A DNA stretch of 64,000 bases, taken from assembly GCF_000379625.1 (NCBI RefSeq), contig NZ_KB903240.1:124195-188194 (forward strand), read 5' to 3'. Made by a program: the position numbers and the translations under genes. Source of the stretch: Actinomycetospora chiangmaiensis DSM 45062. Its GTDB lineage: Bacteria; Actinomycetota; Actinomycetes; Mycobacteriales; Pseudonocardiaceae. Of the stretch, positions 3,389 to 61,132 are shown in pieces. The first letter of the stretch is position 1. Every line of letters begins with the position of its first letter. The notes beneath the pieces are model-generated. The model ran no database searches. It was not told where the DNA came from and saw only the letters and a program-made list of their open reading frames with translations.

Positions 3389-4300
3389 CTACGTGGTGAC
3401 GAAGTCGATCAGCTGTTCCATCGCCGTGATCAGCGGGGTCTGCAGGTCGTTCCAGTCCGACACCGCGCCGAGCACCCGGCGGGCCCCGTCGCGCTCGTCG
3501 CCCCAGCCCAGGACGTCGCAGACGCCCTTCTTCCACTCGATGCCGCGCGGGATCGTCGGCCACTCCCGGATACCGACGACCGAGGGCTTCACGGCCTCCC
3601 AGATGTCGATGTAGGGGTGACCGAGGATCTGCACGTACTGCGCGGCCGGCCCGAGATCGCGACGCAGCCCCTCGGCGATGCGGGACTCCTTGGAGCCGGT
3701 CACGAGGTGGTCGACGAGCACGCCCAGCTTGCGCTGCGGTCCCGGCCCGAACTCCCGCGCGGCCTCCACCAGCACGTCGGCCCCGTGCAGCGGCTCGACC
3801 ACGACGCCCTCGACCCGCAGGTCGTGGCCCCACACCCGCTCCACGATCGCGGCGTCGTGCAGCCCCTCGACCCAGATGCGGTGCGGCAGCGCCACCTTCG
3901 CCCGGCGGTCGTCGCCCCGCACCGACCCCGACGCCGAGCGCTGCTGCTCCGGGGACTGCCGCGGCCGCGGCGGGGTGAGCGTCGCCAGCCGGCCCTCGTA
4001 GAGGAACGACGCGGGCTTCATCGGGAACAGCCGGCGCCGACCCTCGCGGTCCTCGAGGACGACCTCCCGCACGTCGGCGCGGATCACCGCCCCGCAGAAG
4101 CTCCCGGTGGCGTCCTCGACGACGAGTCCGGGCTCCGCCTCGACGGTGAGGATCTCGACCTTGGGCTTGTGGCTCGCCATGCCGGGCAGGCCGCCCGTCC
4201 GGCCCCGTCCCGACGACGGGCCACCCGCCCGGGGTCCCATCGGGGCCCGGCCGGCACCGCCCGTCGTCCGGAACGCGTTGTCGCCGCCCGACCCGTTCAT
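3389..4300 (-). CDS. DUF3097 family protein
   Basis: An actinobacterial protein of unknown function that I assign to DUF3097. From ATG 4300 it has 303 residues: a flexible Gly/Pro/Arg-rich N-terminus (1-45), a small beta domain (PGLVVEDATGSFCGAVIRAD), then the conserved half (VALPHRIWVEGLHDAAIVERV; LGVLVDHLVTGSKESRIA; GHPYIDIWEAVKP; PRGIEWKKGVCDVLGW). The second half resembles a Toprim-like fold by its spaced acidic residues, which is only a suggestion. The start is uncertain because the ribosome site before 4300 is weak and the first clear homology begins later. It faces the gene at 4392 and precedes nfeD by 25 bp. Confidence 0.75.
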   Translation of the reverse strand: MNGSGGDNAFRTTGGAGRAPMGPRAGGPSSGRGRTGGLPGMASHKPKVEILTVEAEPGLVVEDATGSFCGAVIRADVREVVLEDREGRRRLFPMKPASFLYEGRLATLTPPRPRQSPEQQRSASGSVRGDDRRAKVALPHRIWVEGLHDAAIVERVWGHDLRVEGVVVEPLHGADVLVEAAREFGPGPQRKLGVLVDHLVTGSKESRIAEGLRRDLGPAAQYVQILGHPYIDIWEAVKPSVVGIREWPTIPRGIEWKKGVCDVLGWGDERDGARRVLGAVSDWNDLQTPLITAMEQLIDFVTT

Positions 4301-4378
4301 GCCTCGACCCTGGGTCCTCGCCACGGACGGTGACGGTAGTTGTCCGAGCGCGGGAGCGCGGCCACCGACACGCCTGCT

Positions 4379-4384
4379 TACCCT
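4379..4384 (+). promoter_or_regulatory. -10 element TACCCT for a leaderless start
   Basis: TACCCT ends 7 bases before the ATG at 4392, the usual spacing for an actinobacterial leaderless mRNA that begins at its start codon. No Shine-Dalgarno sequence is visible, which fits. The call is by pattern only. Confidence 0.5.
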
Positions 4385-59406: not shown

Positions 59407-60356
59407 TCGTCGATCTGCCCTCGACGGACACGTCGGCGGTCAACCGCAAGATGGTGCAGCTGCGGGAGTCCGCGGGCGCGGTCGCCCTCGGCCGGGTGCT
59501 CACGCTGGTGATCTCCACGGTGGACGGTCCGGAGGCCGAGCAGGCCATCCAGGCCGCCAACGACGCGTCCCGGGAGCACCCCTGCCGGGTGCTCGTCCTG
59601 GCGCGCGGGCAGCGGGAGGCCGCCACGCGGCTCGACGCGCAGATCCGCATCGGCGGCGACGCCGGCGCCAGCGAGGTCATCGTGCTGCGCATGTACGGGC
59701 CGCTGGCCGACCACGGCGGGTCGATCATCGTCCCGCTGCTGCTGCCGGACGCGCCCATCGTCACCTGGTGGCCGGGCGATCCTCCGCCCGCGCCGGCGCA
59801 GGACCCGGTCGGCGCCGTCGCGGGCCGCCGGATCACCGACGTCTCCACCACGGCGACGCCGTCCCGGACGCTGCTCGAACTCGGTGCGAACTACCGGCCG
59901 GGCGACACCGACCTGGCGTGGAGCCGCATCACCGGGTGGCGGGCGCTGATCACCTCCGCGCTGGACGAGCCCCCCTACGACGCCGTCACCCGGGCCGAGG
60001 TGGACGGGCTCGCCGAGTCCGCGTCCGCGGACCTGCTGGCGGGCTGGCTGGCGTCGCGGTTGGACGTCCCGGTGACACGCCGCGTGGTCGACGTGCCGGG
60101 GGGTCACCTCGGCGCGGTCCGGCTCGAGCGGCCCTCGGGGACGGTCGAGCTCAAGCGGCAGGACTCCAAGACGGCGAGGCTCACCCAACCCGGGCAGCCG
60201 GTCCGTCGCGTCGCGCTCCCCCGCCGGACCGCGCGTGACTGCCTGGCCGAGGAGCTCCGCCGTCTCGATCCCGACGAGATCTTCCACGAGGCGCTCGGGG
60301 CCATCCCCCGGGTCGAGGCGGACAGTCCCGAGGCGAAGGGCACGGTGAGCGCGTGA
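59403..60356 (+). CDS. opcA: Glucose-6-phosphate dehydrogenase assembly protein OpcA
   Basis: 317 residues. Blocks: SREHPCRVLVLARGQREAA, GGSIIVPLLLPDAPIVTWWP, YRPGDTDLAWSRITGWRALI, all standard for OpcA, which binds and activates Zwf and is redox-sensitive in some bacteria. GTG 59403 overlaps the zwf stop by four bases, and pgl starts within its stop. Confidence 0.94.
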   Translation: MIVDLPSTDTSAVNRKMVQLRESAGAVALGRVLTLVISTVDGPEAEQAIQAANDASREHPCRVLVLARGQREAATRLDAQIRIGGDAGASEVIVLRMYGPLADHGGSIIVPLLLPDAPIVTWWPGDPPPAPAQDPVGAVAGRRITDVSTTATPSRTLLELGANYRPGDTDLAWSRITGWRALITSALDEPPYDAVTRAEVDGLAESASADLLAGWLASRLDVPVTRRVVDVPGGHLGAVRLERPSGTVELKRQDSKTARLTQPGQPVRRVALPRRTARDCLAEELRRLDPDEIFHEALGAIPRVEADSPEAKGTVSA

Positions 60357-61132
60357 GCGGGCGGGAGATCGTCACCCATCCCGACGACGGGTCGGTGGCG
60401 GCGGACGGGGCGGCGCGGCTGCTCGCCGCCCTCGCGGCCGCCCAGGCCGAGCGCGGGGTGGCGTCGGTCGTCCTCACCGGCGGCGGCATCGGCATCGCGA
60501 TGCTCGAGGCGGTCGCGGCGTCGCCGGACCTCGGTTCGGTCGACTGGTCGCGGGTCGAGGTCTTCTGGGGCGACGAGCGCTTCGTGCCCGCCGGCTCGGA
60601 GGACCGGAACGACGTGCAGGCGCGGGCCGCACTGCTGGACGAGGTCGACCTCGACCCGGCCCGGGTGCACCCGATGGCCTCGTCGACGCCGGGCCCCTCG
60701 GCGCTCGAGGCCGAGGACTCGGCCGACCCCGACCAGGGCGCCCAGGCGTACGCCCAGGTGCTCACCGAGGCGGCCACCCGGCTCGGTGAGGGCGTGCCCG
60801 GCATCCCGGCGTTCGACGTGCTGCTCGCCGGGTGCGGGCCGGAGGGCCACACGCTCTCGGTCTTCCCCGACTCCCCCGCCGTGCACGCGACGGCGGCCGG
60901 GGTGGTGGCGGTCCGGGACTGCCCGAAGCCGCCGCCCACCCGGATCTCGCTCACCCTCGCCGCGGCCCGGTCCGCCCGGCAGGTGTGGCTGGTGGCCACC
61001 GGGGAGGGCAAGGCCGACGCGTTGGCCCGGGCCGCTCACGGGGCGACCGAGGTCGAGGTCCCGCTCGCCGGGCTCGCCGGCACCGAGCGGACCCTGTGGC
61101 TGCTCGACGAGGCGGCCGCGGCGAAGATCTAG
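60353..61132 (+). CDS. pgl: 6-phosphogluconolactonase
   Basis: Hydrolyses 6-phosphogluconolactone. 259 residues (DevB type): VVLTGGGIGIAMLEAV, VEVFWGDERFVPAGSEDRND, FDVLLAGCGPEGHTLSVFPD. The catalytic loop reads GCGPEGHTLSVF where most family members have GxGxDGHxASLF, so Glu replaces the usual Asp. It ends the operon and is followed by a terminator. A copy of the 12 bp motif lies in its first codons (60380-60391). Confidence 0.92.
   Translation: MSGREIVTHPDDGSVAADGAARLLAALAAAQAERGVASVVLTGGGIGIAMLEAVAASPDLGSVDWSRVEVFWGDERFVPAGSEDRNDVQARAALLDEVDLDPARVHPMASSTPGPSALEAEDSADPDQGAQAYAQVLTEAATRLGEGVPGIPAFDVLLAGCGPEGHTLSVFPDSPAVHATAAGVVAVRDCPKPPPTRISLTLAAARSARQVWLVATGEGKADALARAAHGATEVEVPLAGLAGTERTLWLLDEAAAAKI

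Follow-up and report, generated by a model that had tools for sequence, protein, structure and literature searches.

The DNA analysed here, a 64-kb stretch referred to as the window, carries many copies of a short word whose full form is TTCCCGACGNCGGGT, with N a free base, and we conclude with high confidence that the word is a DNA recognition site, dispersed over the chromosome, conserved, and specific to one clade. We observed its number, its occurrence on both strands, its restriction to one clade, its in-place replacement at ungapped sites and its conservation footprint. A motif kept near letter-perfect amid changing surroundings suggests a putative reader protein, by which this small group of soil bacteria perhaps recognises its own DNA. 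A preliminary description of the window had reported the recurring word and offered several roles for it; the observation itself was confirmed, and the interpretation was partly supported.

Results

The 12-mer CCCGACGACGGG was found in 11 exact copies in the window and 743 in the 5.86 Mb genome (G000, assembly 97.6% complete), compared with 13 for a reversed control (a generous baseline, see below), while the full site reached 501 exact genome copies compared with 0 for its control, which supplies the whole-genome count proposed in the preliminary description. The ten exact 12-mer positions given there were all right, with an eleventh copy at 1400-1411 (minus strand) overlooked, and the near relatives it listed were present, at 25238, 25830, 27123, 57206, 46179 and 63944. 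It had also seen the word extend beyond the 12-mer core, and 7 of the 11 exact window copies did reach the exact 14-mer TTCCCGACGACGGG. Position 8 of the 12-mer varied freely: in 464 kb it was A 59 times, C 23, G 33 and T 20, each with an expectation of about 3. The site is therefore CCCGACGNCGGG, lying inside TTCCCGACGNCGGGT, with 21 copies of CCCGACGNCGGG in the window. The site is 15 bp long and half-palindromic, with an asymmetric ACGN core, and its density per Mb was 85 for exact 15-mers, 133 for 14-mers and 290 for CCCGACGNCGGG.

Window matches with at most one mismatch to the 12-mer numbered 35, compared with 6.05 expected (100 dinucleotide shuffles, largest 13). The motif survived the fifth-order Markov comparison, named earlier as a refuting test: across 858 kb the 12-mer occurred 112 times with 7.9 expected, and the 15-mer 81 times with 0.14 expected. 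Genes contained 52 15-mers compared with 0.17 after synonymous codon shuffling, and 85 12-mers compared with a mean of 8.5 and a maximum of 14 in 30 synonymous shuffles, which rules out a protein motif as the cause and bears out the earlier view that protein constraint does not explain the word. Each of the ten congeneric genomes poor in the motif contained 19-43 12-mers (reversed controls 9-20). Chance alone can therefore be fairly put at a few tens of 12-mers per genome, and the reversed control is generous; for the 15-mer the chance level was 0-1 per genome. Context statistics covered 858 kb (C1:1-400000 and C24:24195-482162) of the 5.86 Mb and early counts 464 kb, with genes called by our own codon-score script rather than taken from a curated annotation. 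No RNA families at gathering threshold and no tRNAs were found in the window.

Two exact 15-mers of the window, at 7306..7320 (-) and 51518..51532 (-), began 3 nt past a stop codon in sense to the preceding gene, and one was intergenic (23299..23313, +). Those in genes included 16825..16839 (+), 11 bp from the 3' end and retained in G001, G003 and G016 with N = T, C, A; 37003..37017 (+); 43357..43371 (+), for which ungapped alignment showed no motif in G010, G012, G015 and G017; 50446..50460 (-), 35 bp from the 3' end; and 57205..57219 (-), identical in G003 and changed in G017 at 7 of 14 motif bases and 1 of 24 flank bases, again without gaps. Exact 12-mers in genes were carried by TTCCCGACGACGGGC (1399..1413, -, the overlooked copy) and twice by GTCCCGACGACGGGC (4207..4221, +; 10994..11008, -). 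Other forms observed in genes were TTCCCGACGGCGGGC (12730..12744, +; retained in G003 and G016), TCCCCGACGACGGGC (20203..20217, +; 7 bp from the 3' end), GTCCCGACGGCGGGT (25236..25250, +; core retained in G001, G003 and G016), CACCCGACGGCGGGT (36405..36419, -; N variable among sisters), GTCCCGACGCCGGGT (49161..49175, +; retained in three sisters) and ATCCCGACGACGGGT (60378..60392, +). GTCCCGACGCCGGGT was also intergenic at 46178..46192 (-), where G001, G003 and G016 read TTCCCGACGCCGGGT, and at 63943..63957 (-). Weak flanks, with 3 mismatches to the 15-mer, were seen for CCCGACGCCGGG (10383..10397, +) and CCCGACGGCGGG (63872..63886, +).

Conservation was profiled on 36 of the 40 aligned exact sites (four dropped for gaps or incomplete flanks), drawn from 49 exact sites in 464 kb. 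Between G000 and G003, 21 of 504 cells at the 14 fixed positions had changed (4.2%), or 7 of 432 (1.6%) once the two outermost T's are set aside, compared with 9 of 36 at N (25%), 204 of 1418 in the flanks (14.4%) and 11.7% in shuffled control words. The inner positions were thus conserved in a sister species, a point that the preliminary description had left to be checked. Flank divergence was set against about 12% overall, with no drop around the sites of the kind that local exchange might produce, and 3 of the 40 aligned sites differed by at least 4 bases in G003. The earlier suggestion of a recognition site is well supported by this DNA-level conservation with a free base, together with the presence of the site on either strand and in every reading frame. 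Twenty-eight sites could be aligned to motif-free G017, 12 of them ungapped (colinear) and 16 gapped, and at the ungapped sites the motif arose by replacement in place. In none of the 16 gapped alignments were as many as 12 of the 15 motif columns missing; three lacked 8-10, and two of these sites sat partly in 26-27-column gaps. The sequence shared among copies ended at about 17 bp, with no common flank.

The strand order of the sites was random (40+/49- in 400 kb and 57+/50- in 458 kb; runs test z 1.5 and 1.3). Their spacing came close to random as well, at one per 4.2-4.5 kb when up to one mismatch was allowed. Intergenic density was 3.7-5.2 times that of coding sequence, with most copies still in genes, in both orientations, where all reading frames occurred and tolerated frames were preferred. 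Copies in gaps and at gene 3' ends had been described before, rightly, and we could quantify an excess in the 50 bp past stop codons (26 compared with 7.9 expected) and add one in the 50 bp ahead of start codons (23 compared with 8.8). Within the 100 bp that follow the nearest stop, sense copies outnumbered antisense copies 30:8 at up to one mismatch. The bias weakened at up to two mismatches (41:25 across every facing gene end), owed something to one tandem array, and was 8:4 in G003. A start exactly 3 nt past the stop was clear in G000 (6 of 15 sense copies) and weak in G003 (1 of 8). Neighbours less than 200 bp apart were inverted in 8 cases and direct in 6, with one clear inverted pair between convergent genes that gave a strong hairpin (-38.3 kcal/mol). 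A lone copy showed no clear gain in folding over shuffles (z -0.63 and -1.66), and the A, C and G of the loop varied as little as the stem bases. G000 also has two short tandem arrays, which resemble ordinary duplications of local origin.

A motif-free stretch of lower GC, G000:C1:720-760 kb, was first taken as a recently acquired island. Pfam matches for ten of its proteins showed the second half to encode RNA polymerase beta and beta', EF-G and ribosomal S3, so that protein constraint accounts for the missing motif in that half; these 20 kb, our one stretch of conserved genes, had no copy at up to one mismatch. The first half contains an Mce cluster and others. Stretches of more than 1 kb without G003 alignment had an in-gene density of 0.156 per kb compared with 0.194 elsewhere, and a between-gene density of 0.31 (2 sites) compared with 0.74; we claim no island effect, since they are mostly one 60.8-kb run whose G003 counterpart was possibly not fetched.

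Each of the five genomes of the motif-rich clade (G000, G001, G003, G007, G016), which are probably Actinomycetospora, contained 463-529 exact 15-mers. The sister clade contained 44 (G015), 24 (G010) and 18 (G014, 59% complete), and the other ten genomes of the genus 0-1 each. Only 0-6 14-mers were found in each of 279 genomes from other genera of the family, and only 0-2 15-mers per genome in 197 genomes from the rest of the phylum. The word was present in weaker form in G015 (32 CCCGACGNCGGG in 460 kb), and 460 kb of motif-free G017 yielded no comparable alternative word, its top-ranked 12-mers having 8-10 copies. Occurrence agreed with the phylogeny in a single-locus tree of 4555 columns, in which the mis-cut G006 piece (branch 0.76) is to be disregarded, the G007 piece is without its middle gene and support for the G000-G001 node is 0.27. 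At least 120 stretches of viral contigs matched, and among the 80 listed all had one match except for one with two; we judged these matches to be chance.

Both comEC (PF03772) and a secretion/pilus ATPase (PF00437) were found in the same 16 of 18 genomes, comEC missing only from those 59% and 83% complete. They are possible uptake machinery and, being equally present in motif-free species, do not explain the motif difference. TadE (PF07811) had no match in the 18 genomes, with a model that matched only 1 of 14 control genomes. C5-methylases (PF00145) occurred in 2 of the 5 motif-rich genomes, in none of the 3 sisters and in 4 of the 10 motif-free ones, and are therefore not linked to the motif; from these genes, the methylation role raised in the preliminary description draws no support. 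PF01580 had 4 matches in two proteins of G000, one on C27, which we take to be FtsK, and a multi-domain protein at C1:778-781 kb, presumably ESX EccC.

Discussion

The most likely mechanism, which we put forward tentatively, is that the site works like a DNA uptake sequence, as a self-tag for transformation. The site would have arisen in one clade, and base substitutions in permissive positions would have carried it along the chromosome, with selection or drive acting on the DNA itself to keep it in place. Cells would preferentially take up or recombine tag-bearing DNA; tagged alleles would thereby be over-transmitted, tags would build up wherever proteins tolerate them, and untagged DNA of other species would be disfavoured. 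A more speculative form of the proposal is a sequence-tagged DNA exchange with a putative reader on a Tad-like, unconventional uptake apparatus, in which the tag might now separate the gene pool of the clade from its sisters. In the actinobacterium Micrococcus luteus transformation depends on Tad pili, and tad and ComEA/ComEC frequently co-occur in actinobacteria, according to excerpts of PMC4322843. The text of that paper has neither of the terms 'uptake sequence' and 'sequence-specific', and therefore lends no support to tag-dependent uptake in actinobacteria.

Dispersed self-recognition words are known mainly from a few Gram-negative families and cyanobacteria. The uptake signal sequence of Pasteurellaceae shows the same general behaviour as the motif, with an unrelated sequence and host, and we know of no uptake sequence that is half-palindromic, unlike TTCCCGACGNCGGGT. 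The receptor proposed for the Pasteurellaceae sequence is a type IV minor pilin (abstract of PMC12616744). The DUS of Neisseriaceae resembles the motif as a 10-15 bp word with many copies in permissive coding and intergenic places and with versions differing between clades; it also has inverted pairs at terminators (excerpts of PMC3630211), to which the one clear pair of the motif may correspond. Like a DUS, the motif was present in hundreds of copies on both strands, above composition models, with an intergenic excess and tolerated frames, the evidence on conserved genes coming from one 20-kb stretch. It differs in being rarer per Mb than a DUS, for which numbers such as 2787 and 3603 per genome are given (excerpts of PMC3630211), in its high-GC actinomycete host, in its half-palindromic 15-mer with a free base, in having no known ComP or type IVa receptor, and in a sister clade with a weaker version and a rest of the genus with none.

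Nearly as likely as an uptake tag is a chromosome-organising or repair function, in which a clade-specific nucleoid-organising, replication-linked or DNA-repair protein would bind the site and selection would keep the copies spread. The same counts, the footprint with its free base, the spread over both strands and the near-random spacing are all consistent with such a protein. The distribution would then resemble that of HIP1 of cyanobacteria, also a genome-wide over-represented word of some clades only; however, HIP1 has 8 bp, is fully palindromic, reaches about 500-2500 copies per Mb and has methyltransferases that act within it (excerpts of PMC4390886), whereas the motif is 15 bp with an asymmetric core, reaches 85 (15-mer) to 290 (CCCGACGNCGGG) per Mb, and is not tracked by PF00145, which is missing from three of the five motif-rich genomes.

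The remaining explanations are much less probable. The excess past stop codons, the sense bias there, the 3-nt spacing in G000 and the hairpin of the one inverted pair would suit a transcription terminator or RNA 3'-end element, but most copies are in genes in either orientation, an equal excess lies ahead of starts, the bias and spacing weaken at two mismatches or in G003, and neither lone-copy folding nor the strict loop bases point to a hairpin; we consider this role improbable, and secondary at best. Still more doubtful is that the site is recognised by a conjugative translocase of the TraB/FtsK type, moving chromosomal DNA between mycelia. TraB-type translocases have recognition sites, and a tag-driven spread would be expected as for an uptake sequence, but neither of the two PF01580 proteins is TraB-like by its probable identity, and the search found no other such gene in the 97.6% complete G000, where a diverged TraB could escape. 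Sites of the KOPS or Chi type are oriented along replichores, and a translocation or recombination guide of this kind (FtsK/KOPS-like or Chi-like), as entertained in the preliminary description for replication or segregation, would suit a short, frequent word along the contigs; since orientation was locally random in both stretches, it is unsupported and very improbable. Equally improbable is an origin as the remnant, or a role as the target, of a mobile REP/MITE-like repeat. The half-palindrome, the two tandem arrays and the two sites partly in gaps would agree with it, but the majority of copies are in genes and no gap covered 12 or more motif columns; because there is no shared flank and replacement was ungapped at 12 of 28 sites, the small mobile-like palindrome proposed earlier is disfavoured. 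These last three explanations, and C5-methylation, fit poorly.

Within one genus the word is absent from some relatives, weak in a sister clade and strong in another clade, which lets its start and spread be read stepwise. If the motif is an uptake tag, it would point to natural transformation in this actinomycete group and would provide a handle, with the tag added to donor DNA; if it is not, it would mark the binding site of a putative chromosome-wide protein.

Two minor observations are added. Some small repeats of G000 ranked above the motif by deviation score, with fewer copies. A query with a frame not kept by the gene caller, probably antisense, gave best identities of 60%, to Actinomycetospora lutea and two Amycolatopsis.

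Definition and abundance of the site

Eleven copies of the 12-mer CCCGACGACGGG were found in the window when both strands were counted. The preliminary description had listed ten, and these stood, but its total had overlooked a copy at 1400. Matches with at most one mismatch numbered 35 in the window, compared with 6.05 in shuffles. The extent of the site was derived from an alignment of 59 copies in 464 kb of the genome carrying the window (G000), where the 12-mer was flanked by TT upstream and a single T downstream, with no strong signal past ~17 bp. In a substitution test, position 8 of the 12-mer was free (A 59, C 23, G 33 and T 20, with ~3 expected each), and changes at G4, A5, C6, G7, C9 or G10 gave at most four occurrences each. 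From the T flanks and the free position, the site was therefore defined as the 15-mer TTCCCGACGNCGGGT.

Across G000 (5,859,376 bases in 31 contigs) the 12-mer occurred 388 and 355 times on the two strands, and the backwards pattern used as a control 7 and 6 times. The ten genomes of the genus without the amplified motif each contained 19-43 copies (reversed controls, 9-20), which is a fairer baseline for the 12-mer than the reversed control. The exact 15-mer was present 501 times in G000 and its reversed control was absent (0 copies). Within 858 kb of this genome, 81 15-mers were observed compared with 0.14 expected from a fifth-order Markov model, bearing out the over-representation beyond such an expectation. 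Fifty-two were inside genes, compared with a mean of 0.17 and a maximum of 1 in 30 synonymous-codon shuffles of the 858 kb, so the earlier view that protein constraint is an insufficient explanation held.

Distribution among relatives

Proteins matching one reading frame of the window, probably an antisense one, came from Actinomycetota, with Actinomycetospora and Amycolatopsis giving the highest identity (60%). A contig of G012, which belongs to the same genus, is syntenic with the window, and the genus is probably Actinomycetospora.

Among the 18 genomes of the genus compared, exact 15-mers were abundant in five (G000, 501; G003, 490; G016, 529; G001, 491; G007, 463), sparse in three (G015, 44; G010, 24; G014, 18, this last genome being 59% complete), and numbered 0 or 1 in the remaining ten. 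A single-locus tree (4555 columns, with the G006 piece mis-cut) placed the five motif-rich genomes in one clade with support of 1.0, and the three sparse genomes as their sister (support 0.87; union 1.0). The shorter 14-mer TCCCGACGNCGGGT was observed 712-885 times in motif-rich, 63-134 times in sister and 0-5 times in other genomes of the genus. Samples of the wider groups gave 0-6 copies of the 14-mer per genome in other genera of the family (279 genomes) and 0-2 copies of the 15-mer elsewhere in the phylum (197 genomes).

Conservation and origin of the sites

The alignment of G000 to G003 covered 40 of the 49 exact 15-mer sites from the 464 kb, with all 14 fixed positions intact at 22, one change at 13 and more at 5. 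Taken position by position, divergence was 0-6% across the twelve inner fixed bases (7 changes in 432 cells, 36 sites), while N was changed at 9 and each outermost T at 7 of the 36 sites. Divergence was 14.4% in the 20-bp flanks of these sites and 11.7% in control words made from shuffled motif letters (163 sites). Of the aligned window-region sites, 13 of 14 from G003, 11 of 11 from G001 and 12 of 15 from G016 were within two mismatches in G000. These alignments show constraint on the DNA word, largely regardless of reading frame. Nine sites of the sister clade lie near the window; only two of them aligned to G000, and one of these two was shared with it.

Origin was examined by aligning 28 sites of contig C24 (at most one mismatch) to the motif-free genome G017. 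Twelve were gap-free within 12 bp, with a mean of 4.75 differences across the 14 motif bases and 6.0 across the 24 bases of flank; at these ungapped sites, pre-existing sequence was rewritten rather than interrupted. Site 57205 is a striking single case, with 7 of 14 motif bases changed and 1 of 24 in the adjoining flank. None of the 16 gapped sites lacked 12 or more motif columns. Three lacked 8-10, and for two of these the gap spanned 26-27 columns; a few sites may therefore be insertions, or just spacers that aligned poorly.

Genomic placement

By our own gene calls for the 858 kb, 140 of 196 sites with at most one mismatch were in genes and 56 were intergenic, an intergenic density 3.7 times that of coding sequence (5.2 times for exact sites). 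The 50 bp following stop codons held 26 sites (7.9 expected), in agreement with the preliminary report of copies in gaps or at the 3' ends of genes. The 50 bp preceding starts held 23 (8.8 expected), and the first 50 bp of genes were depleted (4, with 9.6 expected). In-gene sites used all six frames, proline-glycine readings being commonest and arginine-rich ones rarest (20 of 140). Over the two stretches making up the 858 kb, strand order and strand balance were random, and inter-site gaps had coefficients of variation of 1.02 and 0.90.

Within 100 bp downstream of the nearest stop there were 30 sense and 8 antisense copies, and 41 and 25 when every facing gene end was counted with up to 2 mismatches, the sense counts including several copies from one tandem array. 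Sense copies began exactly 3 nt past the stop in 6 of 15 cases in G000 and 1 of 8 in G003. An inverted motif pair between convergent genes folded at -38.3 kcal/mol (z -6.85), and single copies folded no clearly better than shuffles.

Tandem arrangements were also observed. Four to five units with a 16-bp period lie directly 3' of a stop codon at G000:C1 ~3860-3930 (L111), and three exact 15-mers with a 24-bp period, readable as a GTGTDPAS protein repeat, at C1:866693-866755 (L262 ~6693-6755); a two-copy version of the latter occurs in G014:C27. No copies with at most one mismatch were found in the 40 kb at C1 720001-760000, whose first half (L255) carries an Mce cluster and second half (L256) RNA polymerase, EF-G and S3 genes.

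Candidate readers of the word

The word is short, is preserved at every letter except one free base, and occurs on either strand and in every frame; its best interpretation is a site on DNA that a protein recognises. The motif resembles the DNA uptake sequence (DUS) of Neisseriaceae, as described in PMC3630211, in its placement at permissive positions, its enrichment in spacers and its restriction to a clade, and the one inverted pair may be a further parallel. Genes for comEC and a pilus/secretion ATPase are present in the genus, and transformation via Tad pili is described for an actinobacterium, M. luteus (PMC4322843). However, both genes also occur in motif-free relatives, the M. luteus transformation text mentions no uptake sequence (PMC4322843), and a review notes that other common type IVa systems have yielded no homologues of the DUS receptor ComP (PMC6370729). 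TadE was not detected in the 18 genomes with a profile that matched just 1 of 14 control genomes. HIP1, the over-represented palindrome of cyanobacteria, differs from the motif in its palindromy and its methylases (PMC4390886).

Weighing this evidence, we propose an uptake tag with a putative reader tentatively, as somewhat short of probable; binding by a chromosome-organising or repair protein ranks a close second. Among the papers listed on uptake sequences or dispersed over-represented words in Actinobacteria, none matched by its listing, none of those listed for Actinomycetospora concerned such a motif, and both 12-mers had zero occurrences in the listed papers that contain any of four short strings; this silence does not establish novelty.

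Other repeats and words

A separate dispersed repeat of ~60 bp, probably a REP/MITE-like element, was observed on G000:C1 (L120:16923-16981 and 3580-3636); its copies number in the dozens in G001, G003 and G016. Other over-represented words distinct from the 15-mer were seen in C1 1-400000, namely AGGGGAACCCT/CGTGAGGGGAAC (8-9 copies) and CGCTGCGTCTCC/AGCGGAGCTCGA (15 and 22 copies). Contig C18 of the motif-free G017 carries a small family, present in ~8-10 copies, whose words include ACGAACGGGGCC and CCGGGACGAACG. In the whole window, CGGCGGGGGAG occurred 8 times compared with 0.3-0.5 expected.
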